Both the position numbers and the translations under genes were made by a program. This document shows, piece by piece, positions 22,541-60,104 of a stretch of DNA of 64,000 nucleotides; positions within the stretch are counted from its first letter, which is position 1, and the number at the start of each line of letters is the position of its first letter. The stretch is taken from the NCBI GenBank assembly GCA_038503065.1, contig JBCAMK010000019.1:930001-994000 (forward strand), written 5' to 3'. The notes beneath the pieces were generated by a model. That model saw nothing but the letters and a program-made list of their open reading frames with translations. It did not search any database and was not told where the DNA came from. The DNA comes from Paragyromitra xinjiangensis (taxonomy: Eukaryota > Ascomycota > Pezizomycetes > Pezizales > Discinaceae).

Positions 22541-22805
22541 AGAATGAAAACTGGTAATCCGGGCGGGGGAAGTTTTTCTTTTGTTTCCGGTTATTGGGGA
22601 TATTTTATTTATTTTCGCTTTGATTTTGAGTCGTTTGAGTGTGTTTGTTCGTTATGTTTTGTTTTGAGTTTTTCTTTATTATGTATGATTTTAACGGGGA
22701 AGAAGAGGCTGGCGGTGGATGAGGTCATGTATTCTTATACTCGTACCATTCGGTAGCTAGTTAGGTTAGCGATCGTCTAAATTAAATGAAATTGGAAATT
22801 GGAAA

Positions 22806-22815
22806 TTGGGCCTCA
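22806..22815. repeat. Target duplication TTGGGCCTCA, copy 2
   Basis: Junction between the tail of D and the 5' end of D'. Confidence 0.85.
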
Positions 22816-23153
22816 TCCTGCACACGAAAAAGATCCCTGCAAAACTCCAAAAGCTACGTTGCAACGGCGTTACACACAGCAAAAAGTCTTTAACTCTTCG
22901 GCTTCATTTCTCACCACCTTTACCCCGCTCTCAGTTTTCACGGTCGCAACCCGTGGAAATCATACTGGATCCTCCACAAACACCTCCTAGACGTTCAGCT
23001 TCACCCTCCCCATCACCTGTCAAGTTGGTGGACGTGCGCCTGCCACCCATCTTCACCAAAGGGAACGGCCGCAAGAAAGGCCCCATCCCCAGGAAGCGCC
23101 AGCTCTCCGACCCTTCACCCCAACCAGCCAGAACCCCATCTCCCTCAAAAGAG

Positions 23154-24473
23154 ATGGCTCTCTTTGGCTCCACTGCATTGTCTGCCTTTGCAGAAGATCT
23201 CGACATGGGGGAATCTTCCTCCTCAGCCCTCCCACCCCAGCAAACCAGCGCCCCCCCTTCCCACCTCCCTTTCTCCCCTGAACAAGACTACGCTCCCGAA
23301 GTCCCAGCAGAAGAGGATGGCAAAGATGTCCAGCAATATATGCTCTGGACCATCCAGAACAGCTTTGCAGCCTTAACGGAGCAAATGCAACTCAACCAGC
23401 AAGCACTCATCAACAGACTGGAGCACCAGGCATCCGACATTCTCACCCTCACCTCCCGCATCAACGAGCTCTCTAGAGCCAACAATGCCCTCTCCTCCCT
23501 GGTTAGAGACATCTCTACCAAACCCAGCACCCCTCTCGTCCCACACCCAGCTCCTGTTTCCCCACAGGCTCCTGGTCCAAAAGCCACTACATATGCGCAA
23601 GCCGCCGCTGCTCCCGCCACCACTACCACGAACAAAACCAAGAAGCCTAAGGTCACCCCCCTCTATAACCCCGAGTACACAAAGATCAATCGCGAGATCA
23701 TTGTGGAAACCTCAACCTCCTCCCACGAAATCACTAGTGATGCCCTTTTGAAGGCCATCAACATCACTCTTTCCCCTCGCAATTCTTCCATCCTTATGTG
23801 CACCAGAACAGAAAGATACAATTTTGTTCTCCTCACCCGACCCACAGAATCTGGCAAACAAGTCTGCTCTCTCTATCAAAGAGAGATTGAAGAAGCCTGC
23901 AATCTCCTTCACCTATCTATCTCTGACGTGCGACCCAACTCCAGATGGTCCAAGTTCATCATCCACGGCGTTCCCACCACCACCACCATGAAAGAGGCAC
24001 AGGAGGCCATTGCCACCGCTGCACCTTCCCTCACTCTTGCCCAAATCCCACGCTGGCTCACAACTGAAGCCCAGAGAGCTGGGAAAACAGCCTCAGCTAT
24101 TGTTATCGCCCTTCCCAAAAAATACACCATGGCAACACTTGGATTAACCTACATCCCCATGTTCAACAAATCCTGCCACGTCCAGGAATACTTCTCAATT
24201 TCTCCCACCACACAATGTCGGAAATGTCAGCAATATGGTCACCATCAGCAGACTTGCCACAATACCATTGCCTGTGCTATCTGTGCTGAGCCCCATCCAA
24301 CGGCCCAGCACCCATGCAGTACCAAAGGATGCCAAAAAGGAGCCAAGTGCACCCATCCCCCCATTAGATGTGTCAACTGCAAACAGGGACATCGCACCTT
24401 TGAGCGTTCCTCCTGCACCCACTTTGCCAAACTCACTCTGGCAAAACGCACCCCTCATCCGGCAAACACCTAA
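23154..24473 (+). CDS. ORF1 protein of non-autonomous element D'
   Basis: A 439-residue protein from ATG 23154 (context GAGATGG). It starts with Met-Ala-Leu-Phe and the conserved Gly-Ser-Thr-Ala-Leu-Ser-Ala-Phe. It has an acidic/Ser/Pro segment, a coiled coil (about 75-120), a Pro/Thr linker, an RRM-like region (about 175-275) with Trp-Ser-Lys-Phe-Ile-Ile-His, an Arg-Trp-Leu-Thr block, and knuckles from about 350 (CX2CX3GHX4C, two further Cys/His clusters). The frame is also open upstream for 116 codons; that part (Pro-Ser-Pro-Ser-Pro-Val-Lys-Leu-Val) is conserved in D, F and G, so translation from a non-ATG upstream start is conceivable. It is likely an RNA-binding protein acting in cis on its own transcript. 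Confidence 0.9.
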   Translation: MALFGSTALSAFAEDLDMGESSSSALPPQQTSAPPSHLPFSPEQDYAPEVPAEEDGKDVQQYMLWTIQNSFAALTEQMQLNQQALINRLEHQASDILTLTSRINELSRANNALSSLVRDISTKPSTPLVPHPAPVSPQAPGPKATTYAQAAAAPATTTTNKTKKPKVTPLYNPEYTKINREIIVETSTSSHEITSDALLKAINITLSPRNSSILMCTRTERYNFVLLTRPTESGKQVCSLYQREIEEACNLLHLSISDVRPNSRWSKFIIHGVPTTTTMKEAQEAIATAAPSLTLAQIPRWLTTEAQRAGKTASAIVIALPKKYTMATLGLTYIPMFNKSCHVQEYFSISPTTQCRKCQQYGHHQQTCHNTIACAICAEPHPTAQHPCSTKGCQKGAKCTHPPIRCVNCKQGHRTFERSSCTHFAKLTLAKRTPHPANT

Positions 24474-24519
24474 TCTGCCTACTTTGCCTACACCTCTTAC
24501 CAACAACAATGATTTCCTG

Positions 24520-24767
24520 CCTGTAAAAAGGATGTGCGGTTGGTAAGAGACCATACTTACTGTTTTCTTGTTGCATTGTTTTTACATTCCTATTTGGCAA
24601 GTTTCGTTTACTTTGATTAAGTCTTCTTTTTAGCCTATCTTTTGTCTTCCTTTCTTATTCGCTAAGCTTGAATCTCCCTGCGTGGTGTTCTTGTATGCTT
24701 TCTTTTGTGCTTCCTTGTGGCCTGTCCTGTAACGGAACGTGCGGTTGGTCTCGCACCATAGAGACTG
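24520..24767 (+). other. Paired RNA-like motif in the D' 3' UTR
   Basis: Two copies, at 24520-24562 and 24726-24767. Each has a short stem (CCT/AGG or TCC/GGA around a GTAA-type loop), then GTGCGGTTGGT, five variable bases, ACCATA and ACTG. TGGT and ACCA can pair around the variable bases. The spacing is about 200 nt. I know no family that fits. Confidence 0.6.
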
Positions 24768-24891
24768 TAACTTGGGAGTGTAGGGGTCGAGAGGTTGGCG
24801 GTGGATGAGGCCATGTATTCTTATATGCGTGCCATTCAGTAGCTAGTTAGGTTAGCGACTGTCTAAATAAATTGAAATTGGAAATTGGAAA

Positions 24892-24901
24892 TTGGGCCTC
24901 A
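24892..24901. repeat. Target duplication TTGGGCCTCA, copy 3
   Basis: Junction between the tail of D' and the 5' end of D''. Confidence 0.85.
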
Positions 24902-25239
24902 TCCTGCACGCGAAAAAGATCCCTGCAAAACTCCAAAAGCTACGTTGCAACGGCGTTACACACAGCAAAAAGTCTTTAACTCTTCGGCTTCATTTCTCAC
25001 CACCTTTACCCCGCTCTCAGTTTCCACGGTCGCAACCCGTGGAAATCACACTGGATCCCCCACAAACACCTCCTAGACGTTCAGCTTCACCCTCCCCATC
25101 ACCTGTCAAGTTGGTGGACGTGCGCCTGCCACCCATCTTCACCAAAGGGAACGGCCGCAAGAAAGGCCCCATCCCCAGGAAGCGCCAGCTCTCCAACCCT
25201 TCACCACAACCAGCCAGAACCCCATCTCCCTCAAAAGAG

Positions 25240-26559
25240 ATGGCTCTCTTTGGCTCCACTGCATTATCTGCCTTCACAGAAGATCTCGACATGGGGGAAT
25301 CCTCCTCCTCAGCCCTCCCACCCCAGCAAACCAGCGCCCCCCCCTCCCACCTCCCTTTCTCCCCTGAACAAGACTACGCCCCCGAAGTCCCAGCAGAAGA
25401 GGATGGCAAAGACGTCCAGCAATACATGCTCTGGACCATTCAGAACAGCTTTGCAGCCTTAACGGAGCAAATGCAACTTAACCAGCAAGCACTCATCAAC
25501 AGACTGGAGCACCAGGCATCCGACATTCTCACTCTAACCTCCCGCATCAACGAGCTCTCTAGAGCCAACAATGCCCTCTCCTCCCTGGTTAGAGATATCT
25601 CTACCAAACCCAGCACCCCTCTCGTCCCACACCCAGCTCCTGTTCCCCCACAGGCTCCTGGCCCAAAAGTCACCACATATGCGCAAGCCGCCGCTGCTCC
25701 CGCCACCACTACCACGAACAAGACCAAGAAGCCTAAGGTCACTCCCCTCTATAACCCCGAGTACACAAAGATCAATCGCGAGATCATTGTGGAAACCTCA
25801 ACCTCCTCCCACGAAATCACTAGTGATGCCCTTTTGAAGGCCATCAACATCACTCTTTCCCCTCGCAATTCTTCCATCCTTATGTGCACCAGAACAGAAA
25901 GATACAATTTTGTTCTCCTCACCCGACCCACAGAATCTGGCGAACAGGTCTGCTCCCTTTATCAGAGAGAGATCGAAGAAGCCTGCAACCTCCTCCACCT
26001 ACCCATCTCCGATGTGCGACCCAACTCCAGATGGTCTAAGTTCATCATCCACGGCGTTCCCACCACCACCACCATGAAAGAGGCACAGGAGGCTATTGCC
26101 ACTGCCGCACCTTCCCTCACTCTTGCCCAAATCCCACACTGGCTCACAACTGAAGCCCAGAGAGCTGGGAAAGCAGCCTCAGCCATTGTTATCGCCCTTC
26201 CCAAAAAATATACCATGGCAACCCTTGGGTTAACCTACATCCCCATGTTCAACAAATCCTGCCGCGTCCAGGAATACTTTTCAATTTCTCCCACCACACA
26301 ATGTCGGAAATGTCAGCAATATGGTCATCACCAGCAGACTTGCCACAACACCATTGCCTGTGCCATCTGCGCTGAGCCCCACCCAACGGCCCAACACCCA
26401 TGCAGTACCAAAGGATGCCAAAAAGGAGCCAAGTGCACCCATCCCCCCATCAGATGCGTCAACTGTAAACAGGGACACCACGCCTTTGAGCGTTCCTCCT
26501 GCACTCACTTTGCCAAACTCAATCTGGCGAAACGCACCCCTCATCCGGCAAACGCCTGA
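25240..26559 (+). CDS. ORF1 protein of non-autonomous element D''
   Basis: A 439-residue protein from ATG 25240, collinear with the D' protein and differing at roughly a dozen positions (for example Arg to His just before the Trp-Leu-Thr block, and His to Arg before the Val-Gln-Glu-Tyr block). Coiled coil, RRM-like region and the three zinc knuckles are all retained with every Cys and His ligand that I can align. The frame has stayed open without an ORF2 partner in two independent copies, which suggests that the protein is needed by the element itself or that the amplification is recent. Confidence 0.9.
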   Translation: MALFGSTALSAFTEDLDMGESSSSALPPQQTSAPPSHLPFSPEQDYAPEVPAEEDGKDVQQYMLWTIQNSFAALTEQMQLNQQALINRLEHQASDILTLTSRINELSRANNALSSLVRDISTKPSTPLVPHPAPVPPQAPGPKVTTYAQAAAAPATTTTNKTKKPKVTPLYNPEYTKINREIIVETSTSSHEITSDALLKAINITLSPRNSSILMCTRTERYNFVLLTRPTESGEQVCSLYQREIEEACNLLHLPISDVRPNSRWSKFIIHGVPTTTTMKEAQEAIATAAPSLTLAQIPHWLTTEAQRAGKAASAIVIALPKKYTMATLGLTYIPMFNKSCRVQEYFSISPTTQCRKCQQYGHHQQTCHNTIACAICAEPHPTAQHPCSTKGCQKGAKCTHPPIRCVNCKQGHHAFERSSCTHFAKLNLAKRTPHPANA

Positions 26560-26605
26560 TCTGCTTACTTTGCCCACCCCTCATACCAACAACAACGATT
26601 TCCTG

Positions 26606-26857
26606 CCTGTAAAAAGGATGTGCGGTTGGTAAGAGACCATACTTACTGTTTTCATTGTTGCATTGTTTTTATATTTCTGTTAGGCAAGTTTCGTTTACCT
26701 TGATCATGTTTTCTTTTAGCCTACCTTTTGTCTTACTTTTTTTTTTATTCGCTAAGCTTGAATTTCCCTTCGTGGTGTTCTTGTATGCTTTCTTTTGTGC
26801 TTCCTAGTGGCCTGTCCTGTAACGGAACGTGCGGTTGGTCTCGTACCATAGAGACTG
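26606..26857 (+). other. Paired RNA-like motif in the D'' 3' UTR
   Basis: Copies at 26606-26648 and 26816-26857, equivalent to those of D'. One loop base differs (CTCGT against CTCGC) while both flanking arms are unchanged. Confidence 0.6.
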
Positions 26858-26974
26858 CAACTTGGGAGTGTAGGGGTCGTGAGGTTGGCGGTGGATGAGG
26901 CCATGTATTCTTATACGCGTGCCATTCAGTAGCTAGTTAGGTTAGCGATTGTCTAAATAAATTGAAATTGGAAA

Positions 26975-26984
26975 TTGGGCCTCA
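26975..26984. repeat. Target duplication TTGGGCCTCA, copy 4
   Basis: Rightmost copy, after which gypsy1's integrase frame resumes. Confidence 0.88.
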
Positions 26985-28268: not shown

Positions 28269-28302
28269 TGTAACGGGTACGCCGTTACTGCCTCTAGCGT
28301 GT
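28269..28302 (+). repeat. Gypsy1 3' LTR, segment 1
   Basis: LTR start with TGTAACGGG, cut by LINE C. The last 17 bp (28286-28302, TACTGCCTCTAGCGTGT) are the left copy of LINE C's target duplication. The full LTR adds up to about 702 bp. Confidence 0.88.
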
Positions 28303-28500
28303 TTTTTAGTGTTTTTAGTGTTTTAATTCTACGGCCCTAATACTAAAGTATATCGCCTCATCCGCCGCCAACTACAAAAATAAATCCTCCCCGTTAAAAA
28401 TAACTAACTAAAAGAAAAATAAATAATAATAAAAATTTCCGAGGAAAGAAAGATAACTGAAAGAAAAGCAAATCAATCATTCCCTACTATTCGCGCATAC

Positions 28501-31500
28501 TTATAATCCAATGGAATCAATATAAGAAAAGAAATCAGAAAAATTTAACTTAGGCGAAAAGAAAATATCCCAATTTGGTTCCAAATCTTTAAAGAAATCT
28601 TGTCGTTCTTTATTTCTAAGTTTGCAAGACATGATGCGGTGATGGGAGCCATCCTGTTCGCCGCATGCGCATGTGAGGGGGTCAGTCAATCCGGTGGGAT
28701 CAATGAAGTGTACTTGGTTGCGTATTTTCGCGAGTTTGGAGAATCGTTTGCGTGAAAGCGGTGTGAGGTGTTGTGCAATGTGGAAGGCGGTGGGCTCTGT
28801 GGTGTTGAAAGCCCATGTTTTAAGTAAATGTTTTTTGGGTAAGAGTGAAAGGTGTCCAAGAGTGAGGCGATGCCATGGGCAGAGGGGTTTGTTGTGGGCG
28901 ATCGTAGCTAATTGATCGGCTTTTTCGTTACCGAATATTTGCGTGTGGGAAGGGGTCCATACTCCATTAATGGAGCAGCCTATGTTCTGGAGTGAATTGC
29001 ATGCGTTGAGTGCGTGCCATAAATATTCTTTGTTGTGTGTAGGTCCTCCTATAAGTGACTTGAGGGCGTTTTGGTTATCGACACATAGGTAAATGGATGT
29101 TGGATAGATGATGTGTTGAAGTAGTAGAGATAGAGCTTCTTGCATGGCGTGGATTTCAGCATCTTCATTTTCGGCGTGATGTCCGAGAGCGCAAGAATGT
29201 GTGTAGGTTTGGGTGGTGATGCCGTAGCGTATGTGGGCGATGTAGACTCCAGAAGATGTGTGTCCGTTTTCGCTGAGGGAGCCATCAGTGTATAGAAGCC
29301 AGGCGTTTGTGAGGGTGCCTGTCCAGCTGATGTGTTGTGTGGCTGTTTGTTGTTTAGAAAGTTGGGAAATTCGTAGGGAATTTGGTGTGAGGAAGTGTGG
29401 TTGGAAGGGAAAGTCAAGTCTTTCGAGGGGTTGATTGTTGATGAGGGGTTGAAGTAGGGAGGCTATTCTTTTGAGCCCTGTGCCTTTATAATTTGTTTTT
29501 TGTGGAAGGAATTTTAGTAGTGGAAGGAAGGCTGGATTATGTGCATTGTTTTTTAGAATGCGGATGCCATATTTTTGTGTGTGATAATCCAGGAGTAAGT
29601 TGAGTGGTGGTAAGGAGGCTTCACGTAGTAGCTGGGGGATTTTGGTGTTCCTGGGGAGGCCAGTGATGAGGCGAGCAAGGCTGTGATATGCTGGTTGAAT
29701 GTTGTCTATGATGGTGGGGGCGCCCATCCACCATATGGGGGAGCCCCATAGCATTTTGGGAATGTGAACTATGTGCAGTATGTGATGTATCGTGGCGGGG
29801 GTGAGATGTATGGATTTGAGAAGGGGATAGATGATTCCTTTGGTTTTGAGAAGGGAAGCAACAATGTGATGAGTGTGTTGGTGAAAGGTTAATCTTCGAT
29901 CGATTATGAGGCCAAGCATGCGGTTTTGTTCAGAGGGTAGGATGCTTTGATCATAGAGTGTGATGGGGGTAGGTGTGGGGTCTTTTGCTCTGGAGCTAAG
30001 TCGCAAGTGCATGAGTTCTGTTTTTGGCGGGGAGAAGAGGATGTTGAGGTATGATCCTCTTTGGATTTTAGAGTTTAGGCGTTGTTGTAGTGTCATGGTG
30101 GCGAATTTTTGCGAAAAGCTTGCTTGTAGCATGGCGTTATCGTCAATGTAAGTGTTGGAATAAGTGAGGTTGGAGGGTGAAGGTTCGGTGTCTAGGGCAG
30201 CGCTGTATATAGTGAAGGCAATGGAGGAGACGGCGGATCCTTGTGGGAGTCCACTGTTGAAGGGTGTTGTTGGACTTGTGGTGTTGTTGAATCTAAAAGC
30301 TATGGTTCGGTTGGTAGTGAAAGTTCGGTACCATTGTATGAGGTATGTGGGGAATTTGAAGTGAAGAAAAATGGCAATCATTTGTTGATGGATGACGCAG
30401 TTGAATGCTCCTTCGATGTCTGTGGTGAGGATGGAGGGTCGGAGTTGTTTTTGGTGTCCTGTTGTGGCAGGGGTGTCGAGCCAGGATTGAGAAGGTGTGA
30501 TGATTTGTTGCAGGGCATCTATTGCTGAGATTCCTGTTCGTCCACCTGTGTGCTGATGATTGATTGCGCCTGAATTTATTGCAGCAAGTTCTAATTGTCT
30601 GGTGATGATGCGTTCTAGTAGCTTGCCAAGGCATGATAGCAGTGAGATGGGCCGATAGGCATTGGGTTTGGCGTAGTCATCTTTGCCTGATTTGGGTATG
30701 GGTGTGGCGATTGCTTGTTTCCATATATCAGGAAAGGCACCAAAGTGGAGGGCGGCTGTGAAGATTTTGGGTATGAGTGAGGGGGCGGCTTGATGAACGT
30801 GTTGTATGTGAGGATAAAGGATCCCATCTGGTCCTGGTGCAGACGCAGGAGAGGTTTTGGCGAGTAATTTTGAGATTAACTCTGGGGTGATGTGGGGTGT
30901 ATTGAAGGATTGATCTGATGCGGGTGGAGGGAGCCAGTTTTGTGGTAGTGGCTGAGGGGAGGCAGTGATGGGGGGAAAGAAAGCAGATTTAAAAGCATTG
31001 CATTGTGTTTCAAAGTTGGGTGCGTTATGTAATGCTTGTATGGTGGTGGGGGGTCTTCGGCCATTGGTTTGTTTGATGGCTTGCCATATTTGCCTGGGGT
31101 CATTGGTGGAAAGGCGTTGGTGCCAGTGATGTTTTTTTGCTTCAATGATTTCGGATTTCCATTGTGTGCGGAGGAGTTGAAGGGTTTTCCTGGCGTTTTG
31201 TGGTGGGTTGGGTAATCTGAGTGTGTGATTTATGGTGTTTATTTTCCTTTTGAGTTTGGAAAGTTCGTTGGTCCACCAACCTTTGGAGTGTTGGCTGGGC
31301 TTTGATAATGGTATGGCTGTGATTGTGGCGAATTGTATGAGGGATGTGAGCTGTTCGCATTCTTTTGTGGTTTCGCTGGCGTTGGTGGGTTGGGAATTGT
31401 TGAGTGCTGATTGTTGTATTATGGTGTGGAATAAGGTCCAGTTTGCTTTGCTGAGGTTGCGTTTGGGTGTGGCTGTGGGTTTTGGTGGAAGGAATATTGT

Positions 31501-32193
31501 TGTTGTGATTAAGGTGTGGTCGGAGTTGTCCCTGAGGTTCTGATCAGATTGCCACGTTATAAGATATTGTTGTATGTTTCTGAAAAGGGTGAGATCGATG
31601 ATGGAATTTTTGTTGCCGTTTCTAGGAAAATGTGTGAAGGTTCCTGGGTGGTTGATGAGTTGGTAATTATGGTCTTCGAGCCAGTCAACGAGCTGGTTGG
31701 CCGTTGGTCTGGTGTTGTTGATGGAGGAAGTGTGATAATCAGTTTCAGAGCCGTACCACCATGTGTGGTGTAGGTTAGTGTCTGCTAGTATCATGTGCAT
31801 GGGAAGGAAGTTGTGCATGTTGAGGTAGGTGTGTGTTGTTGGTGTGTGGTTGGCGTAGATGTTGGAGATTTCGATCTCACCTATCGCGGTGGTTATGATG
31901 ATTGAAATGGCGTTGTTGAAATAAGAGGTTGAAATGCGCGGATTTAGGTTCATGTTTGCGTTTATGTATGTGACGCATTTGGGATTTTGATTGGTTGGTG
32001 AAAAACGGTGAAAGTTCGGAATGTTAGGTGGTAGGCCTTGGGTTTCTGACCATGGGTCCTGTAGTGCGAGTACGGCGAGTTGAGTGTTAATGTTTGCGTG
32101 ATGGAGTACTGAAAGAGTGGAGGCCTTTCCTTTAGCGCAATTCAGTTGTTGCACTTGGGCTATGCCTGTGATTTGTGTTGTGTGTTTAATCAT
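28501..32193 (-). CDS. LINE C ORF2: endonuclease, reverse transcriptase, RNase H
   Basis: A 1230-residue open frame from ATG 32193 (Met-Ile-Lys-His). A longer frame upstream to 32226 is open, but the ATG overlapping the ORF1 stop (ATGATTAA) matches the arrangement of LINE A. It has an endonuclease (Gln-Asp-Pro-Trp; Ala-Asp-Thr-Asn-Leu-His-His in place of Gly-Asp-Phe-Asn), a reverse transcriptase with Ala-Pro-Gly-Pro-Asp-Gly and Tyr-Ile-Asp-Asp-Asn (the two catalytic Asp kept, the following Asp changed to Asn), an RNase H (Thr-Asp-Gly-Ser-Leu, Glu-Asp-Ala-Glu, Asp-Asn-Gln-Asn-Ala, Pro-Ser-His-Thr) and CXCX7HX4C near the end. Potentially active. Confidence 0.94.
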   Translation of the reverse strand: MIKHTTQITGIAQVQQLNCAKGKASTLSVLHHANINTQLAVLALQDPWSETQGLPPNIPNFHRFSPTNQNPKCVTYINANMNLNPRISTSYFNNAISIIITTAIGEIEISNIYANHTPTTHTYLNMHNFLPMHMILADTNLHHTWWYGSETDYHTSSINNTRPTANQLVDWLEDHNYQLINHPGTFTHFPRNGNKNSIIDLTLFRNIQQYLITWQSDQNLRDNSDHTLITTTIFLPPKPTATPKRNLSKANWTLFHTIIQQSALNNSQPTNASETTKECEQLTSLIQFATITAIPLSKPSQHSKGWWTNELSKLKRKINTINHTLRLPNPPQNARKTLQLLRTQWKSEIIEAKKHHWHQRLSTNDPRQIWQAIKQTNGRRPPTTIQALHNAPNFETQCNAFKSAFFPPITASPQPLPQNWLPPPASDQSFNTPHITPELISKLLAKTSPASAPGPDGILYPHIQHVHQAAPSLIPKIFTAALHFGAFPDIWKQAIATPIPKSGKDDYAKPNAYRPISLLSCLGKLLERIITRQLELAAINSGAINHQHTGGRTGISAIDALQQIITPSQSWLDTPATTGHQKQLRPSILTTDIEGAFNCVIHQQMIAIFLHFKFPTYLIQWYRTFTTNRTIAFRFNNTTSPTTPFNSGLPQGSAVSSIAFTIYSAALDTEPSPSNLTYSNTYIDDNAMLQASFSQKFATMTLQQRLNSKIQRGSYLNILFSPPKTELMHLRLSSRAKDPTPTPITLYDQSILPSEQNRMLGLIIDRRLTFHQHTHHIVASLLKTKGIIYPLLKSIHLTPATIHHILHIVHIPKMLWGSPIWWMGAPTIIDNIQPAYHSLARLITGLPRNTKIPQLLREASLPPLNLLLDYHTQKYGIRILKNNAHNPAFLPLLKFLPQKTNYKGTGLKRIASLLQPLINNQPLERLDFPFQPHFLTPNSLRISQLSKQQTATQHISWTGTLTNAWLLYTDGSLSENGHTSSGVYIAHIRYGITTQTYTHSCALGHHAENEDAEIHAMQEALSLLLQHIIYPTSIYLCVDNQNALKSLIGGPTHNKEYLWHALNACNSLQNIGCSINGVWTPSHTQIFGNEKADQLATIAHNKPLCPWHRLTLGHLSLLPKKHLLKTWAFNTTEPTAFHIAQHLTPLSRKRFSKLAKIRNQVHFIDPTGLTDPLTCACGEQDGSHHRIMSCKLRNKERQDFFKDLEPNWDIFFSPKLNFSDFFSYIDSIGL

Positions 32194-33619
32194 TATGGTT
32201 GTTGAGTTTATGTGCGCGTTGAGCAAGGTAGAGTGCTCTGGTTTTCATTTTTTCGGGGCAGTCGATGGCGGTGTGTTGATTAGTGTTGCAGCATGCGCAT
32301 CTGAGGGGCATGTGCGTGCATCTGGCGCCTCCTTTGCAGGTGATTTGATCGCATCTGTGGTCATTGGTGTGGTGAGCAAGTGCGCAGATGGCGCAGGCGA
32401 TTTCTTGTTTGCATGTGGCGTCATGGTGTCCTAGTTTTTGACAGTTGCGACATTGGGTGGTTGGGTTTATGGGGTGATATTCGCGGATTTTGCATGTGGC
32501 GTTTAGGATGTTGAGGTAGGTAAAGCCCAGGGATTTGAGGGTGTGTCTGGCTGGTAGGGCGATGACGATGGAGGAGGCTTTCTTGCCGACTCGCTTTTCT
32601 TCTGTGGAGAGCCACCTTGGGGCTTGGGCTAGCTGTACGTCAGGAATGGCGGCTTGGAGGGCATTGGTAATAGTGGTGGGTGTGACAGGTTCGAGGTTGA
32701 AGTTAAGGGGGACGGCGTCAATGATGAATTTGGACCATCTGCTGTTGACTCTGATGTTGGTGATTGGGATTTTGAGGAGATTGCATGCTGAGGTGATTTC
32801 ATGTTCAAATTGTTCGATGAATTTGTCAGCGGCTTCATTTGGTTTGGTGGTGAGGATGAGGTTGTCATTGTTGGTTTTTCGGACTGCTAGGATGCATGTG
32901 TTGACGGATCCTAGTCGGTTGTTGATGGCGTTCAGTATGGAGTCTGGAGTGGCTGAGATGGGTAGGGGTTCTGTGAGTTCGACGATGATTTCCCTTTTGT
33001 CGGTGGTGAACTCAGGTTTGTATAATGGCTGAATTTTCGGGGTCTTTTTGTGGGTGACGGTTGTGAAGTTTGCTTCGCCAGGTGCAGCTGTGATTTTGCT
33101 GGCGTAGGATTCTTGTGCTTTGGCGGGGTTGATGGGTGGTTTGGTGGTGTTTGTGGTGGAAGGTTTGCTGTTTATGTTGGAGGGGGTGGTTTGAACATTT
33201 TGGTTGGTTTGAATGTGGAGGAGTCTGGCGTCTAAGGAGCGGACTGTGTTTTGAAGGGAGATGTTTTGTGCCTTAATTTCGGCGAGTTTTGAGGTGGTGT
33301 TTGTGTTTTGGATGTTGTTGAATTTGATCTGGGCTTGGAGGCTGTCCATTTGTCTTTCAAATTCATCTTTCATGGTGTTGAATTGGGTTTGGATGAACCA
33401 GGCAAGGTAATTGGTGGAGGTGGCATTGGTCATATTCGCCATGTCTTCGGCAGGGATTTGAGTAAAGTTGAGGTTGGAATTGTATGCTTGGCCTCCGACG
33501 CTTTCGTCGTCATCGTGTTCGCTGGAGGAGCTGCTGTGGTTGGAGGTGGGTTTATCTTCCGTTGGGAGATCAGTGGGATCAAAGGCGGAGAGGGCGGTGC
33601 TGCCTTCAAGTGCAGACAT
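32186..33619 (-). CDS. LINE C ORF1, gag-like RNA-binding protein
   Basis: A 477-residue protein, exactly the length of LINE B ORF1, from ATG 33619. The frame is open upstream through the 5' UTR into the flanking LTR, which is not conserved as protein. It has Gly-Ser-Thr-Ala-Leu-Ser-Ala-Phe at the N-terminus, an acidic Ser/Glu/Asp stretch, a coiled coil (about 70-130), an Asn/Thr/Lys linker, an RRM-like region (about 205-300) with Trp-Ser-Lys-Phe-Ile-Ile-Asp, Arg-Trp-Leu-Ser, and three zinc knuckles from about 390. The stop (32188-32186) lies inside the ORF2 start region, an overlap of 8 bases. Confidence 0.93.
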   Translation of the reverse strand: MSALEGSTALSAFDPTDLPTEDKPTSNHSSSSSEHDDDESVGGQAYNSNLNFTQIPAEDMANMTNATSTNYLAWFIQTQFNTMKDEFERQMDSLQAQIKFNNIQNTNTTSKLAEIKAQNISLQNTVRSLDARLLHIQTNQNVQTTPSNINSKPSTTNTTKPPINPAKAQESYASKITAAPGEANFTTVTHKKTPKIQPLYKPEFTTDKREIIVELTEPLPISATPDSILNAINNRLGSVNTCILAVRKTNNDNLILTTKPNEAADKFIEQFEHEITSACNLLKIPITNIRVNSRWSKFIIDAVPLNFNLEPVTPTTITNALQAAIPDVQLAQAPRWLSTEEKRVGKKASSIVIALPARHTLKSLGFTYLNILNATCKIREYHPINPTTQCRNCQKLGHHDATCKQEIACAICALAHHTNDHRCDQITCKGGARCTHMPLRCACCNTNQHTAIDCPEKMKTRALYLAQRAHKLNNHND

Positions 33620-33952
33620 GTTGGAAGTGCGGGTGAGGTGGGGAGAGAAGTGGCTGGAGGTGCGTTTGCACCCAGCGAGAGGTGTGGGTGTGATGGGTGC
33701 CCAAACAAGTTGGACGGGAGTTGCAGGTGGTGATGGCGATACTCTGGGAGGAGTATTGGGAGCCAGGATGATGGGGGAGCGATGGGAGTGATGAGTTCCC
33801 AGAAGCGAGGTGGGGTGTAGTGATACACGAGGCCAAAGAGATAAAGACTTTTTGGTTTCGTGAGGTTCTGGGAGAGGTAGTTTGTGGTGTTGAGTTTGCG
33901 GTCGGAGATGATGGAGGAAAAGTAGAAGCGAGGTGGGCGTTCGCTTGTTATA

Positions 33953-34526
33953 TACTGCCTCTAGCATGTGTAGTAGCATAGGGCCGGACTGATGGGACAG
34001 TAGGAGCCTGCATCGGTGGGGTTGCTCCCACATGCAGAGAGCTACCGCATCCCACTGATCTGGTTGATACAGAGGAACCGCATGTGCATAAGCTGACGAG
34101 CTGATGGCACATAGACGGCTGCATCTACCACTCCGAGGAAGTGGTAGAGTTCTGAATCAACCTGTGCTGTATGCATCAGCGGAAGCTGATAGGCAACGCA
34201 CTGGCAGCGCTATCTACAGATAATACACATGCGGATTAGACTGAACTGTGCCGCGCATGTAGGACTGCAGTGTGCAGGACTATGCCGGTGGTTCATAGAG
34301 TCTAGAGTGGTCAGATTGCTAATGGAGGTGCGGCAGCTCTTGGAGCATAGCCCCCGGAAGTACGAAAGGTCTTCCGGAGTAGAACACCAGTCCATTTGGC
34401 AATGGGACTCCGGGTCAAACCCAGTCCCCCACTAGAGCACGGCAGAGCGAGGACTGCGGAACGCAGGTGTTAAATACATCGCGAATGCTCCACCCTGCTG
34501 CTCTATTCTTCAGTGATAGTTGAGCC
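33953..34526 (+). repeat. Gypsy1 3' LTR, segment 2
   Basis: It resumes after LINE C with the right target copy (33953-33969) and runs to TTGAGCC (34520-34526), where E1 is inserted. It contains the LINE B target sequence uninterrupted. Confidence 0.9.
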
Positions 34527-34763
34527 TTCGAAACCACCGCCTAACCTTCGGGTTTTGCGACATCGTGGGTTTTCCCTCTTTAATTTCCCCTTCATCGATC
34601 ATGGATAAGTACCTCGCCGGTGCTATATCGCTCTATCCATACCCCATTCACCCGTACGAGCGTTCTGTCGACCCCAGTATCACCTATGGTCACTGCTGGT
34701 TCATGTTCGCCATCAAACTCTACGGTACCAGTGCTTAGCGAGCACTACAACACCTCGACAACT

Positions 34764-35635
34764 CCACTCACGAAACTTCGTTTCGCCTGAGTGGTACCAT
34801 TACAACCGGATTCTCTTGGAGAATCCATCCCCGTTTGAATGGAGTTAATATCTTGACTCCTTCCCCGTCTATTCGAGAGCAACGTTCGCGTCCTTGCTCT
34901 CACCCATTTCACGATACCCCAACTCCTTTGGAGGTTGGGGCCCCCATTTGACCCTGTTGCGCAACTCAACCGAGCCATGCGTAGCAACCCCGCTTTTCGG
35001 GGAACATCGGTTCCCCACCCGCATACAGCGCCACACCTGTTCGCTAGTGTGGCAACCCGTTCGAAAACCCCCCGCTCCGCCTCATTTGCACTTTAGTCGT
35101 TCCCTTCTGTACCTTAGGGATCGTGCTGGGCTTCTATTGTGTTAAATTACCTCCTCACCGACGCGAATATATTGGATGTCTGTCTCGTACCTTAGGGATC
35201 ATATTCAGCATCTTCAATCTCCCTCCGTCATTCTCCTCCTTGGCCGTGGTTGCCTAACCACCCCCCTTTCCGAGACGTACCTCGTAAGGTACAACCCATC
35301 AACTACGGGCGCAAGCAGCCCTTAAACTTTTACACGGTCAGAGAGGACAACGCCTGGGACCGTTCAATAAACCAGAGACCACCCCGCTCTACTGACTCCC
35401 CCAGAGTCACCCAGCTTCAACCGATGATTACGTTCGCCAGATCATCACCCCATTGACCGAGGTTCTGTTTAGCTTAACCTCACCCCATCCCGTCTCCTTG
35501 GAGACACCCCAGTAAGACCAATGATTCCCAGGAATCATTACCCTGTTTACCGAGAGTTTCGTCCGCCAGACTCTCACCCCTTTTTTCCGAGAAGTGCTTG
35601 CACTTTTCACCCAGTTTGACCGTCTCTTCGGAGAC
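34764..35635 (+). other. Array of short hairpins, each followed by a C-run
   Basis: Perfect or near-perfect stems start at 34764, 34808, 34841, 34875, 34917, 34988, 35031, 35246, 35277, 35307, 35393, 35423, 35459, 35492, 35520, 35552, 35590 and 35622. Examples are a 9-bp stem with a 2-nt loop (35520-35539), an 8-bp stem (34875-34901) and a UUCG-loop stem (35622-35635). The stem sequences are unrelated, but most are followed within three bases by ACCC, ACCCC or another C-run, and neighbours are mostly 28-42 nt apart. Confidence 0.75.
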
Positions 35636-35666
35636 ACCCTGTTGTTTGAACTATTCTCTCGGCCTG

Positions 35667-35842
35667 CCTTGTAACAGGAAGTGCGGTTGATGGCATACCA
35701 TAGTCATTGTAGTTTGATAGTTCCCCCCGTTTGAAGATCCCCACGACCTCGCCAGTTCTTGTGGGTAACCCGTTGAATGCGTGGATTTCCTTTGCCCTGC
35801 TCTTTGACGAGATGTGCGGTTGGTAGCAAACCATAGTTACTG
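35667..35842 (+). other. Paired RNA-like motif in the E1 3' region
   Basis: Copies at about 35667-35709 and 35800-35842 match those of D' and D''. The upstream stem differs but still pairs (CCT/AGG and CTC/GAG), and GTGCGGTTG, ACCATAG and a final TTG or CTG are conserved. The spacing is shorter, about 135 nt. Confidence 0.55.
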
Positions 35843-35995
35843 GAGTTAGGATTTCTGTTTGATGTTTACCGAAGGTTTTGATTTCATTTGGCCGTGTTAT
35901 CTTTTCTCCTTCATGTACGTTCATTTATGTTTTGTGACCTTCGGGTCTTACGCCATATGTATTTTAGTACATCAATGCGGACACCAATATTAATT

Positions 35996-36017
35996 GAAAA
36001 AAAAAAAAAAAAAAAAA
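35996..36017 (+). repeat. Poly(A) tail of E1
   Basis: Run of about 22 A after ATATTAATTG, directly followed by TTGAGC. Confidence 0.85.
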
Positions 36018-36464
36018 TTGAGCACCCGAACCGAACCCACACCTTCCCCATTAGGAAACCCAACCACCACGCAACCTACAACAACACACCAAAATCTCAC
36101 GATAAGTCTTTAGTGAAAGGCTTCAAGCTACCCCGCACGCAACGAAAGTGGTGAACTATCGCCACCACAACAACTTCGTTTCGCCTAGCGAGTATCTTTA
36201 CAAAGCCCTCTCTTCCCTCTTTCAAACGCACTACTCTTAGTACGGTCGGCCTCCCAGCCTGGCGTACCAATTCACTTTCGACGACTACGCCGCTATGGCA
36301 CCCAACAAGAAACGAGGCCAGGCCTCACAAGATAAACGCCAGGGCCAACCAGCTCAGGCTCCCATTCAAGCTACACTCCCCTTCTCCCAAGCATAAAGCC
36401 TCCCCGTCAGGCCACCCCTCAGGAGGCCCAACAGTTAGCAGAACTTCAGCAAGCCCGCGACGAG

Positions 36465-38015
36465 ATGGCAAAGGCTCTAGAAGCCTCACCCGCCTTGTTC
36501 AGCATCCCAGCTGAGAACCCCCTCCCAAATGGATGCCTAGCAGCAAACAACGGGAAAATGTTTGTCACTATTCAATCCGATTTACACCCAGCAAACCCCG
36601 CCTTCTACAGGAGACCTAGCGAACAACAGGCCATACTACTCCAACACCAAAACCAGCAATTACTCCCAGCCGATACGGAAATGAGCACTGAGATCCCAGA
36701 AACTCAGGCACCCTCGAGCGAAGAGCAAACCCAAACCCCGACACAACAATCTGACCTCCCACTCACTGAACCAAGGGATGAGAGAACTGGCATCCGCCCA
36801 CCCACAGACGATGATTTCCTCTCAGGTTTCAACATGTTAGTTGACTACACTGGTTGTAAGGAAACCTTCCCCGTACACGACCTCTGGATCATGGCCAACT
36901 TCCAGGCCTGGTCCTCACACCACGCCACACTTCCGTTGCTCAGACAAGTCACCCAGCTCAGCGGCGAGGTTACTCGCTTAAACTCCGAAATACGCGACCT
37001 ACGGTCGCAAGTTACAAAATTAAACACCCGCCCTCCCCCAGTCCCGCCCAGGCCTGCACCAAATGCCCCCCAAGGCAAAGCAGCTCCTCCCCCGCTCAAT
37101 TATGTTGATAACCCTACCAACCATACCAACTGGGCAGCAGTGGCGGCTGCCGCCCCTCCCCTCCCTAAAAAGAAGATAGAACCCCTCATCAAACCCGATT
37201 ACACCAGGGTAAACCGTGAACTAGTGGTACAAGTCGACGGGGAAATACCCACCCCTCCTACCGATGACGACATTAAAGACATCGTCAACAAAGTCCTGCA
37301 AAACACCAGCACCTCAGTCATTATGGCCAGGCGCACCCCACGTCGGAATATTATCCTCGAGACCCCCATGGATATCTCTGCCACAGCAGTGGAAGCATAC
37401 GGAGCAGAGATAGGAGAAGCCCTACAGGAAGCAGGCATAGCAGTCTCTTCCATCCACGTCAACCAAGTCTGGTCAAAATTTATTGTCCATGGCGTTCCAA
37501 CCACAATCGCAGAAGGTACAGATGCTGGTAATCTTATGGCCTCGGAGCTTAAGATATCCTACCCGAAACTCACCCTCGCCCAACTACCCCGCTGGCTCAG
37601 TTCACCTGAAGTCAGAAAAGATAAACAACATTCTTCAATGGTGATTTCTCTCAACGGGTCATACAATATGTCAACCCTCGGAATCAGGAACTTCATCATC
37701 TTTAATCGTACCTGCAAGGTACAACCTTATGTTTCTTTCAGCCCGGACACCCAATGCAAGAAGTGCAACGTCTTCGGACACGCTACCTCGATGTGCAAGC
37801 ACCCCACTGGAATCTGCGCAGTTTGCGCTCTCCCACACCAAACCCGCCAACACGAATGCAAACTCTGTAAAGGAGGCCACTCTTGCACTCACCCACCCAT
37901 TCGATGCGCCAACTGCCCAGGCAGCCCTGGACACAAAGCAACTGACCCTAACTGCCCGGCACGAGCTAAGCTTACCCTCTTGAAGGGTAAAGGAAAGGAA
38001 GTAGACATGGCCTAG
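36465..38015 (+). CDS. ORF1 protein of E2 (N-terminus possibly frameshifted)
   Basis: A 516-residue open frame from ATG 36465. The N-terminal third is Pro/Gln/Glu-rich; a heptad-like segment lies near 160-185, an Ala/Pro linker near 190-240, an RRM-like region near 245-350 (Val-Trp-Ser-Lys-Phe-Ile-Val-His), an Arg-Trp-Leu-Ser block near 375, and zinc knuckles from about 427 (CX2CX3GHX4C and two more). It is a distinct lineage from the D, F and B types. A conserved-looking basic start at ATG 36295 ends after 33 codons in TAA 36394, and the frame of this ORF is open from about 36390, so the original protein may have begun at 36295 and suffered a one-base shift. No ORF2 follows. Confidence 0.85.
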   Translation: MAKALEASPALFSIPAENPLPNGCLAANNGKMFVTIQSDLHPANPAFYRRPSEQQAILLQHQNQQLLPADTEMSTEIPETQAPSSEEQTQTPTQQSDLPLTEPRDERTGIRPPTDDDFLSGFNMLVDYTGCKETFPVHDLWIMANFQAWSSHHATLPLLRQVTQLSGEVTRLNSEIRDLRSQVTKLNTRPPPVPPRPAPNAPQGKAAPPPLNYVDNPTNHTNWAAVAAAAPPLPKKKIEPLIKPDYTRVNRELVVQVDGEIPTPPTDDDIKDIVNKVLQNTSTSVIMARRTPRRNIILETPMDISATAVEAYGAEIGEALQEAGIAVSSIHVNQVWSKFIVHGVPTTIAEGTDAGNLMASELKISYPKLTLAQLPRWLSSPEVRKDKQHSSMVISLNGSYNMSTLGIRNFIIFNRTCKVQPYVSFSPDTQCKKCNVFGHATSMCKHPTGICAVCALPHQTRQHECKLCKGGHSCTHPPIRCANCPGSPGHKATDPNCPARAKLTLLKGKGKEVDMA

Positions 38016-38237
38016 TTTCCTACTCAGATTGATCGAAGGTTTCTTTGTTTTCCCTTTATTAAAGTTTGATGAACAATTTGGAAAGTTTACGTTTCAGCGG
38101 AGGTTTCTTTATTTTCCTCTATCCAGTTTGCATGGGTTAAGATTGTTTCCCGGTTATGCTTGTATTTAAATTTTCTTTGGGGGTGATGAGGCGCGCCATA
38201 AGTATTTTAGTACTTCAATGCGATAAAATATTAATTG

Positions 38238-38261
38238 AAAAAAAAAAAAAAAAAAAAAAAA
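38238..38261 (+). repeat. Poly(A) tail of E2
   Basis: Run of about 23-24 A after ATATTAATTG, followed by TTGAGCCC of the LTR. Confidence 0.85.
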
Positions 38262-38379
38262 TTGAGCCCTTAAGATTCTTGAGTAGTTTGCACGAAAGAA
38301 TCGGATTCTGAACTTGATCTATATCCATTTCGCAACGGCCGTACACCTAGCCTACCTACCTAGGCCTACCCCCATTACA
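38262..38379 (+). repeat. Gypsy1 3' LTR, segment 3
   Basis: It starts with the right copy of the E1/E2 target (TTGAGCC) and ends in CCCCCATTACA, where the 5' LTR has CCCCCGTTACA. The sequence is otherwise identical to 11775-11891 by eye. The next base begins gypsy2's integrase. Confidence 0.9.
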
Positions 38380-39068
38380 GCATTTCATCCACAAACCGAT
38401 GGTCAAACCGAGAGGGTTAACCAGGTTCTGGAGCAGTATATGCGGAGCTATTGTTCCTTCCAACAGGATGATTGGTCAGATCTCCTCCCCCTCGCCGAGT
38501 ATGCCTACAACTCTGCTATCTCCGAGTCCACCAAGGTATCACCCTTCTGTGCAAACTATGGGTTTGAACCTCGGACCAATTGGCCAAATGCAAAGCCAAG
38601 AGCAGATTGGGATAACCCGGCGAGTCAAGTTAAGGTATCTCAGTGGGAAGCCATTTGGCATGCCATGCAGGAGAACCTGGGGAAGGCTAGGGTCCAGATG
38701 GCCCGCTGGTATGATAAGCATCACCAGAAGGGACCGGAACTCAAGCCAGGTGATGAGGTTATGCTTGATCGGCGCAATGTACAGACAAAGCGGCCGATGA
38801 ACAAGCTGGATCAGAAGAAGTTTGGGCCCTTTAAGGTCAAGAAGGCAGTGGGGAAGCGAGCCTTTGAGCTTGTCTTGCCTCCGGGTATGAAGATACACCC
38901 GGTATTCCACATCAGCCTCTTGGAACCTTACAGAGCGCCAGCAGACTCTCTGAGAAGAGAACCCCCACCGGAGATGGAGATGGTAGATGAGGAAGAGAAC
39001 TGGGTGATGAGGGAGATAGCAGACTGCAGGGTTAACCGCAAAAAGAAGAGAGTGGAGTATCTTGTGTT
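38380..39068 (+). pseudogene. Gypsy2 integrase C-terminal part (split gene)
   Basis: In-frame coding for the integrase core from Ala-Phe-His-Pro-Gln-Thr-Asp-Gly-Gln-Thr-Glu-Arg-Val onward, the GPY-like block (Lys-Phe-Gly-Pro-Phe-Lys-Val) and the start of the chromodomain up to Val-Glu-Tyr-Leu-Val-Leu. About three quarters of residues match gypsy1's integrase. Upstream it is cut by gypsy1; its N-terminal parts should lie left of this window. Downstream it is cut by LINE H at 39068 and completed at 56259. No stop or shift is seen in the segment itself, so gypsy2 was probably intact when it was hit. Confidence 0.92.
39064..39068. repeat. Target GTGTT at the left end of the H/F/G cluster
   Basis: First of four GTGTT(G) copies (39064, 44791, 50522, 56253). 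Short, so on its own weak; the junction context makes it convincing. Confidence 0.7.
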
Positions 39069-59510: not shown

Positions 59511-59808
59511 GGGTCCATGTACGAATTAGTGTACTGATAGGGTAGGCAATAATGGGTAGTGGAGGGGCCTGAGTGATATATCTTGTAAGCGAATAATAAT
59601 AGACGGAGGCAACGGTGTCGGAATATGCGCGTATTAGGGTCATTTTGTATTATAGGCGGAGTATTTTAATAGAAACGTACGGTCCAAAAGTCAAACCAAG
59701 CCTGAACCTCGGGGTCAAAACCAGAAGGGTCCGTCATTGTGCGTGGTTTCGCGGATGGTCCGGAAATCTAGGAGAGGGGTCCGCGAAGATACACGTAAAG
59801 TACAAGGC

Positions 59809-59927
59809 GATCCGGGAAGATGCATACCTTTATGAGGAGTCCTTGGAGCTGGAGATCATCGATCCGGGAAGATGCGAAGCTTTATCAGGAGTCCTTGGAG
59901 CTGGAGATCATCGATCCAGGAAAAATG
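59809..59927 (+). repeat. 52-bp minisatellite, about 2.3 units
   Basis: GATCCGGGAAGATGC starts units at 59809 and 59861, and a partial third unit starts at 59913 (GATCCAGGAA). Units share AGGAGTCCTTGGAGCTGG and differ at only a few positions. Confidence 0.85.
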
Positions 59928-60104
59928 AGCAGAAAACCAGGAACTCGAAGGGATTGAGGAACGATGGGATGCGGTCCCAGGGATCAAAGAGACAGACCAT
60001 ACGGTCTGGAAGTTATCGATTGGGGTACGGTATCCCAGGGAGAAGGAGTCACTTGTCCAGAGCGGTCCCCAAAGAATGGTTCGTGATCTAAGAAGAGCAA
60101 CAGA

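Follow-up and report, generated by a model that had tools for sequence, protein, structure and literature searches.

We report that the serial hairpins of a noncoding retroelement, here called E1, form an RNA structure maintained by selection, the evidence being compensated changes in their stems. A preliminary description of the window (the whole 64-kb stretch of DNA under analysis) had regarded the array as a modular RNA constrained in structure over sequence, and compensated stem changes both within E1 and between E1 and a sister family, E2, bear out that reading. A 3′ tail unites E1 with autonomous LINEs and ORF1-only elements in one site-specific LINE clan. How LINE proteins come to choose RNAs besides their own messenger has long been asked, and here the hairpin order of a noncoding RNA has survived heavy change of sequence in two target-specific clans; the length, spacing and C-runs of the array therefore constitute a directly testable code.

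E1 and its insertion target

Searching the genome (48.2 Mb in 22 contigs) for E1 returned at least seven near-full copies, including the one in the window (Table 1). The earlier classification as a noncoding retroelement is upheld by these copies, by the poly(A), by TTGAG at both ends and by a 3′ end in common with LINE-type elements. On the sense strand, which is C-rich, the longest ATG-initiated ORF of E1 spans 49 aa, and on the antisense strand 105 aa; E2 has no ORF either. All seven E1 copies lie directly behind TTGAG, six of them at one position of an LTR and one behind another E1 (contig C21), and TTGAG is also found on both sides at the other E1 junctions inspected. After the last E1 the LTR resumes at four LTR sites, and a LINE-type element comes first at the two others (contig C19, which holds the window, and C15), so that the order in the window is 5′ part of the LTR, E1, ORF1-only element and 3′ part of the LTR.

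The LTR is about 703 bp long and has the ends TGTAACGGG...CCCGTTACA; a 485-bp portion of it (34035-34519) has at least 40 genome copies at 95-100%. Empty LTR sites read TTGAG, with one reading TAGAG, and at another locus (L011) the LTR copy holding E1 has ACACC on either flank, as judged by eye. The TATA-like sequence TTAAATAC (34470-34477) starts 50 nt upstream of TTGAG and is probably a promoter element of the LTR.

ARAGORN found no tRNA in E1. Rfam returned no family at gathering score for the window, which had only two sub-threshold chance matches, and no match up to E 1 for E2. A retroposed tRNA or a described RNA as the origin of E1 is thus unsupported by these searches.

Near its 5′ end the same LTR also contains an antisense LINE (28298-33952), with TACTGCCTCTAGC on either side (28269-28297 and 33953-34000), and two further loci (L025 and L026) have a junction at this LTR position; because this LINE and the TTGAG clan share the LTR, two LINE families occupy two fixed points of it. 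Elsewhere in the window, a short tandem repeat (52 bp) lies at 59808-59942.

Table 1. Coordinates of E1, its internal features and its neighbours in the window
Feature	Position	Strand	Remarks
T1, 5′ part of LTR, insertion target	33953..34519	+	Matches 703-bp LTR copies
TTGAG, 5′ junction (target-site duplication)	34520..34524	+	Second TTGAG at 36018-36022, after poly(A)
E1, noncoding non-autonomous retroelement, 1493 nt	34525..36017	+	Six other near-full copies, 91-93% identity
Hairpin array, block 1	34730..35053	+	9 hairpins, C-run in 7
Hairpin array, block 2	35246..35635	+	12 hairpins, C-run in 10
D1 motif, first copy	35660..35715	+	Covariation, 17 copies
D1 motif, second copy	35793..35848	+	Covariation, 17 copies
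3′-tail hairpin, common to E1, E2, ORF1-only and autonomous elements	35950..35980	+	Alignment
Poly(A) tail	35997..36017	+	
ORF1-only element, same clan, same TTGAG	36023..38261	+	ORF1 open 36465-38015, interrupted nearer start
3′ part of same LTR	38262..38380	+	

Extent and statistics of the hairpin array

The six hairpins first quoted for E1 are all present, with the one at 35592-35605 lying inside a longer stem that spans 35589-35608, and the initial count of at least 17 is extended to 21 by a hand-set list covering 34730-35635. The trailing C-run ascribed to nearly all hairpins takes the form of CCC within 8 nt downstream of the stem, beginning 0-2 nt past it, in 17 of the 21. Hairpin starts are mostly 27-44 nt apart, as expected from the periodic spacing reported for the array, apart from two longer steps of 59 and 216 nt. 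Stem lengths are about 6-9 bp and stem sequences vary, and loops are short and of several kinds. The stems had been called unrelated, which does not hold throughout: a GTCTC/GAGAC stem is present twice, there are short repeat families, and a few stems recur. Tandem Repeats Finder reported no array at the hairpin region, in keeping with the view that these are not ordinary tandem repeats. A pattern derived from the linkers had eight genome matches against six for its reversed control; the linker is therefore not a tight motif, the pattern being barely commoner than the control.

Hairpins were also counted with a strict automatic test, which accepts perfect Watson-Crick stems of at least 6 pairs with loops of 3-14 and scores CCC within 7 nt. 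Over 34527-36017 the test finds 14 hairpins, 12 of them with CCC; 300 dinucleotide shuffles average 2.67 ± 1.50 hairpins (maximum 7) and 0.47 with CCC (maximum 3). Over 34764-35635 the corresponding figures are 13 against 1.43 (maximum 6) and 12 against 0.26 (maximum 4). The comparison with shuffled sequence proposed in the preliminary description therefore favours the array, since dinucleotide shuffles never reach either count. Both strands of the whole 64-kb window contain 34 hairpin-plus-CCC sites, 12 of which are on the + strand of E1; such sites number 11 in the densest 872-nt segment, the + strand average being 0.32, and segments of that length outside E1 never hold more than two, with nothing E1-like elsewhere in the window. 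Local folding z-scores on the sense strand range from -0.9 to -3.9 in block 1 and from -1.5 to -2.7 in block 2. Folding energy alone is weak evidence here, because scores of -2 to -3 are equally found in some antisense and control windows.

Conservation of the array in the sister family E2

E2 is represented by at least nine near-full copies, which were aligned, and by further partial ones. It resides in a different repeat, inserted 66 nt downstream of TATATAAG, frequently forms tandems with other E2 copies and with ORF1-only elements, and belongs to a clan parallel to that of E1. At the DNA level the two families align mainly over E1 positions 132-430, with 74-77% identity. Their hairpins follow the same order at near-identical coordinates with partly different stem letters. 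Paired by order, the starts in E1/E2 are 211/210, 245/241, 289/290, 322/323, 356/357, 398/399, 436/437, 480/482 and 511/517 in block 1, and 727/717, 758/745, 788/777, 815/802, 874/857, 904/887 and 940/933 later on, the last ones being paired by judgement. E1 exceeds E2 by five hairpins.

Selection was assessed on an alignment of 7 E1 and 9 E2 copies (15 distinct rows), using six hairpins with 41 pairs that were set by hand after viewing both families; block 2 as a whole and three hairpins of block 1 (34917, 34955 and 34999) were excluded. In this set 99.2% of 615 cells are paired. Ten of the 41 pairs have changed on both sides (7.4 in shuffles; reached in 1/500), and 48 cells carry a two-sided change (20.8 in shuffles; reached in 0/500). 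The 28 invariant pairs are uninformative because they never vary, and there is no excess of pair types, with 13 observed and 12.5 in shuffles. When the partner is slid by 1-3 columns, 35-53% of cells are paired, with at most one two-sided pair. When the E1 pairs are projected onto E2 automatically the result is weaker, because diverged stems misalign: in E2, 75.1% of cells pair over 34720-35066, with 32-54% for slides, and over 35236-35420 the share is 70.2%, with 30-63% for slides. Since hand-setting favours structure, the two-sided changes constitute the strongest evidence.

Two-sided changes can also be read from the alignment within a single family, at 14/26 and 97/113 in E1 and at 129/148 and 130/147 in E2. 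Across 17 hairpins within E1, stem columns vary at 9.4% against 16.6% elsewhere, and the changed pair cells comprise 21 compensated, 13 one-sided yet paired and 13 broken. For nine hairpins within E2 the variation is 16.4% against 23.0%, and 3 changed cells are compensated, 7 are one-sided and paired and 10 are broken, so that broken and kept pairs are equal in number. The compensation in other copies that the preliminary description had called for is thus present within E1 and between the families, whereas within E2 broken pairs are as frequent as kept ones.

The D1 motif and the 3′-tail hairpin

Clear covariation also marks another RNA motif of E1, the 55-nt D1, which occurs in two copies near the 3′ end of both E1 and E2 and also behind ORF1 elsewhere, including 24510/24715 and 26596/26805 in the window. 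Over 17 copies, 98.5% of cells are paired with the register of helix 2 set by eye (another register gave 76.5%), and two-sided changes affect 7 of 8 pairs (4.3 in shuffles; reached in 7/500). The strict D1 pattern matches 80 genome sites, with none for the reversed control and none in viral contigs.

The 3′-tail hairpin overlaps a stretch over which E1 (35951-36017) and the ORF1-only element (38194-38258) are 91% identical along 67 nt, and it is also found in the autonomous LINE L035. All of its 120 cells in E1, E2, ORF1-only and autonomous elements are paired; only two pairs co-vary, a number reached in 301/500 shuffles, and its 11 two-sided cells are reached in 0/500. Pair-type measures show no excess for the tail hairpin or for D1.

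Two ORF1-only elements of a third family, 95% identical, stand head to tail at 22704-26978 with a D1 pair behind each ORF1, and outside the clusters an ORF1-type element with D1 and CCHC knuckles stands alone (L045:1170-1450, at 288 kb of C19).

LINE partners and their ORF1

Members of the clan have one insertion site in common, the TTGAG that follows the TATA-like box in the LTR, and E1 and the autonomous LINE share the start CCTTCGAA behind TTGAG. The nearest named relatives of ORF2 come from Morchella sextelata, at 33% identity, and among the matches listed for an RNA polymerase III subunit the closest named one is from Tuber melanosporum, at 87%; together they point to a Pezizales-like fungus. 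No LTR-targeting LINE clan was found in the literature searched, which lay mostly outside subscription journals. The 5′ UTRs of the LINEs carry no such array, and RNAalifold found almost no common fold in them.

ORF1 of the ORF1-only elements is under strong purifying selection (dN/dS 0.02-0.15). At one locus (L043:718-6775) three such elements with open frames stand head to tail, two of which differ at 44% of silent sites and 1.5% of amino-acid-changing sites. The ORF1 protein (ORF1p) of the partners carries CCHC knuckles and is predicted, from a mostly low-confidence model, to have a coiled coil and an RRM-like domain. Comparison with PDB sequences gave no useful relative, with one match at E 0.21, and Foldseek ranked aspartokinases at the top for the low-confidence model. 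The structural reading is confined to the RRM-like region, for which the best Z is 8.4, a near tie with HMG-CoA reductase domains. A single sub-cut-off Pfam match to SRP-alpha_N on the autonomous ORF1 was set aside.

Hairpins in ORF1 were counted over the first 600 nt of 12 sequences, with 200 synonymous shuffles each. Six (L043a, b and c, L044, L027 and L014), all of them ORF1-only elements of clan 2, have 8-12 hairpins, reached in 0 or 1 of 200 shuffles. The excess is weaker in L042, L039, the window ORF1 (read from an upstream start) and L035, where 5, 6, 18 and 19 of 200 shuffles reach the observed number; in autonomous ORF1s it is weak. Two intact ORF1-only elements of clan 1, L037 and L038, have three hairpins each against expected 2.6 and 3.1 (reached in 103 and 130 of 200 shuffles). 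Hairpins with CCC exceed every shuffle in 3 of the 12 (L043b, L043c and L014). Hairpin positions are not conserved among nine clan-2 sequences, of which L018 and L042 have only five hairpins each. Beyond 600 nt there is no excess in L043b and L043c and a weak one at 600-1200 in L043a; windows of ORF2 and gypsy pol mostly match expectation, with a few exceptions. In two other ORF1s of the window the initial 600 nt are also enriched, to a smaller degree (5 against 1.8 and 6 against 2.2). In the ORF1 starts at L043:2889-3488 and L014:4086-4685, many of the hairpins above synonymous shuffles are followed by C-runs.

Discussion

The account we put forward is that E1 is a noncoding non-autonomous retroelement riding a site-specific LINE, and that its array docks ORF1p; taken as a whole, we give it slightly less than an even chance. 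The RNA would start at the LTR promoter just upstream, as its position and the TATA-like box suggest, and satellites that insert shortly behind LTR promoters would find a promoter ready for use. ORF2p, presumably that of the LINE, would then recognize the shared 3′ hairpin of the polyadenylated E1 RNA and copy it into the TTGAG of the LTR or of an already resident element. Mobilization of E1 in trans through the tail it shares with the LINE is well supported and very probable. The hairpin array, kept by selection as RNA structure, would form a multivalent landing platform for the ORF1p of the LINE and of the ORF1-only satellites, its hairpins holding C-rich linkers open at regular spacing, and an RNA with no ORF1p of its own would thereby gain a coat and access to the machinery.

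Docking of ORF1p is our best guess because the partners encode an ORF1p with CCHC knuckles and a modelled coiled coil and RRM-like domain, and we infer this putative role tentatively. Against it stands the lack of a hairpin excess in L037 and L038, the nearest intact ORF1-only relatives of E1, a pattern that would fit a satellite forced to gain affinity in trans or, just as well, another role such as ribosome shielding. The hairpin excess in six clan-2 ORF1 starts speaks for docking; the weak excess in autonomous ORF1s, the shifting positions of coding hairpins, the array-less LINE 5′ UTRs and the equal numbers of broken and kept pairs within E2 count against the account. With greater reserve still, E1 and E2 may be viewed as a putative new class of structured RNA satellite, in which some 16-21 hairpin-plus-C-run modules multivalently recruit ORF1p from an LTR-targeting LINE consortium of three tiers, namely the autonomous LINE, the ORF1-only satellite under purifying selection and the noncoding array. 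Neither Rfam nor the literature searched, mostly other than subscription journals, yielded a hairpin-array design of this kind; this is weak evidence of absence.

Many short, stable hairpins of varied sequence, with short loops of several kinds, in two families devoid of ORFs would also suit an array that spares a capped, polyadenylated, ORF-less RNA from scanning or degradation with no specific protein involved. We consider this unlikely, as by itself it leaves the regular C-runs, the near-constant spacing and the same order in E2 unexplained. It is improbable that E1 and E2 are derivatives of a structured noncoding RNA of the host, copied by a LINE and retaining its old host function or none: E1 copies are found at one target and have LINE-like ends, no separate host gene is among the E1 or E2 genome matches listed, and Rfam gives no match, even though the hairpin order is old and a precedent exists in Magnaporthe WEIRD, presented in the accessible part of its report as a 1.1-kb noncoding RNA fused to LINE pieces (PMC2104539). 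A role as a small-RNA source or silencing decoy, with host RNA interference enzymes processing the hairpins or being titrated by them, is more doubtful again; serial hairpins in a transcribed repeat would in principle be a natural substrate, but stems of this length are short for dicing and processing would harm an element that keeps its hairpins. The precursor hairpins suggested at the outset are likewise disfavoured because the stems are short. A chance product of composition, in the form of C-rich sequence folding by accident or of degraded tandem repeats, has next to no standing, since a C-rich sense strand and a few recurring stems are opposed by the dinucleotide shuffles, the rest of the window, the compensated changes and the lack of a Tandem Repeats Finder array.

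Having no ORF, a shared 3′ end with poly(A) and a target-site duplication, E1 fits the LINE-mobilized non-LTR type, and with 7/7 copies behind TTGAG it is site-specific; it works like a LINE-dependent SINE and is classed with non-autonomous site-specific non-LTR elements. In Magnaporthe, Mg-SINE depends on the LINE MGL and shares its 3′ tail, according to the accessible part of that report (PMC2104539). E1 is also noncoding, probably mobilized in trans, and has a 3′ end in common with a LINE; as far as that part of the report describes Mg-SINE, E1 differs in its 1.49-kb length, its lack of a tRNA head, its LINE-like start, its one target and its being largely a hairpin array. The same part reports WEIRD only within MINE chimeras, and as not a transposable element (PMC2104539). 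WEIRD resembles E1 in being a lengthy noncoding RNA of a fungus that a LINE has copied, and is set apart by description, no hairpin array being described for it in that part of the text.

Several other systems invite comparison. Classical SINEs are usually shorter than about 700 nt, whereas E1 is 1493 nt long and has no tRNA-, 5S- or 7SL-type head by ARAGORN and Rfam. HAL1 or half-LINE elements are ORF1-only, like the partners of E1, which keep ORF1 and lack ORF2; these partners differ in being lineages under strong purifying selection beside a noncoding third tier, and E1 itself has no ORF1. R2, SART1 and TRAS1 are target-specific non-LTR elements of rDNA or telomeres. The E1 clan, like them, inserts at one exact sequence and has poly(A) or a shared 3′ tail, but it targets one point within an LTR (and a second repeat), and E1 makes no protein. 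The double-hairpin elements of Allomyces, offered in the preliminary description as the nearest idea, are short, mitochondrial and composed of two adjacent hairpins. Beyond being mobile DNA with hairpins, the likeness does not hold: with its 21 different hairpins, E1 is a long retroelement of the nucleus that ends in poly(A), lies on large contigs and is flanked by LTR sequence. In small viruses, multiple RNA packaging signals consist of repeated degenerate hairpins. The hairpins of E1 could similarly recruit a coat protein in series, although E1 has no capsid and its stems, unlike those signals, are followed by a regular C-run.
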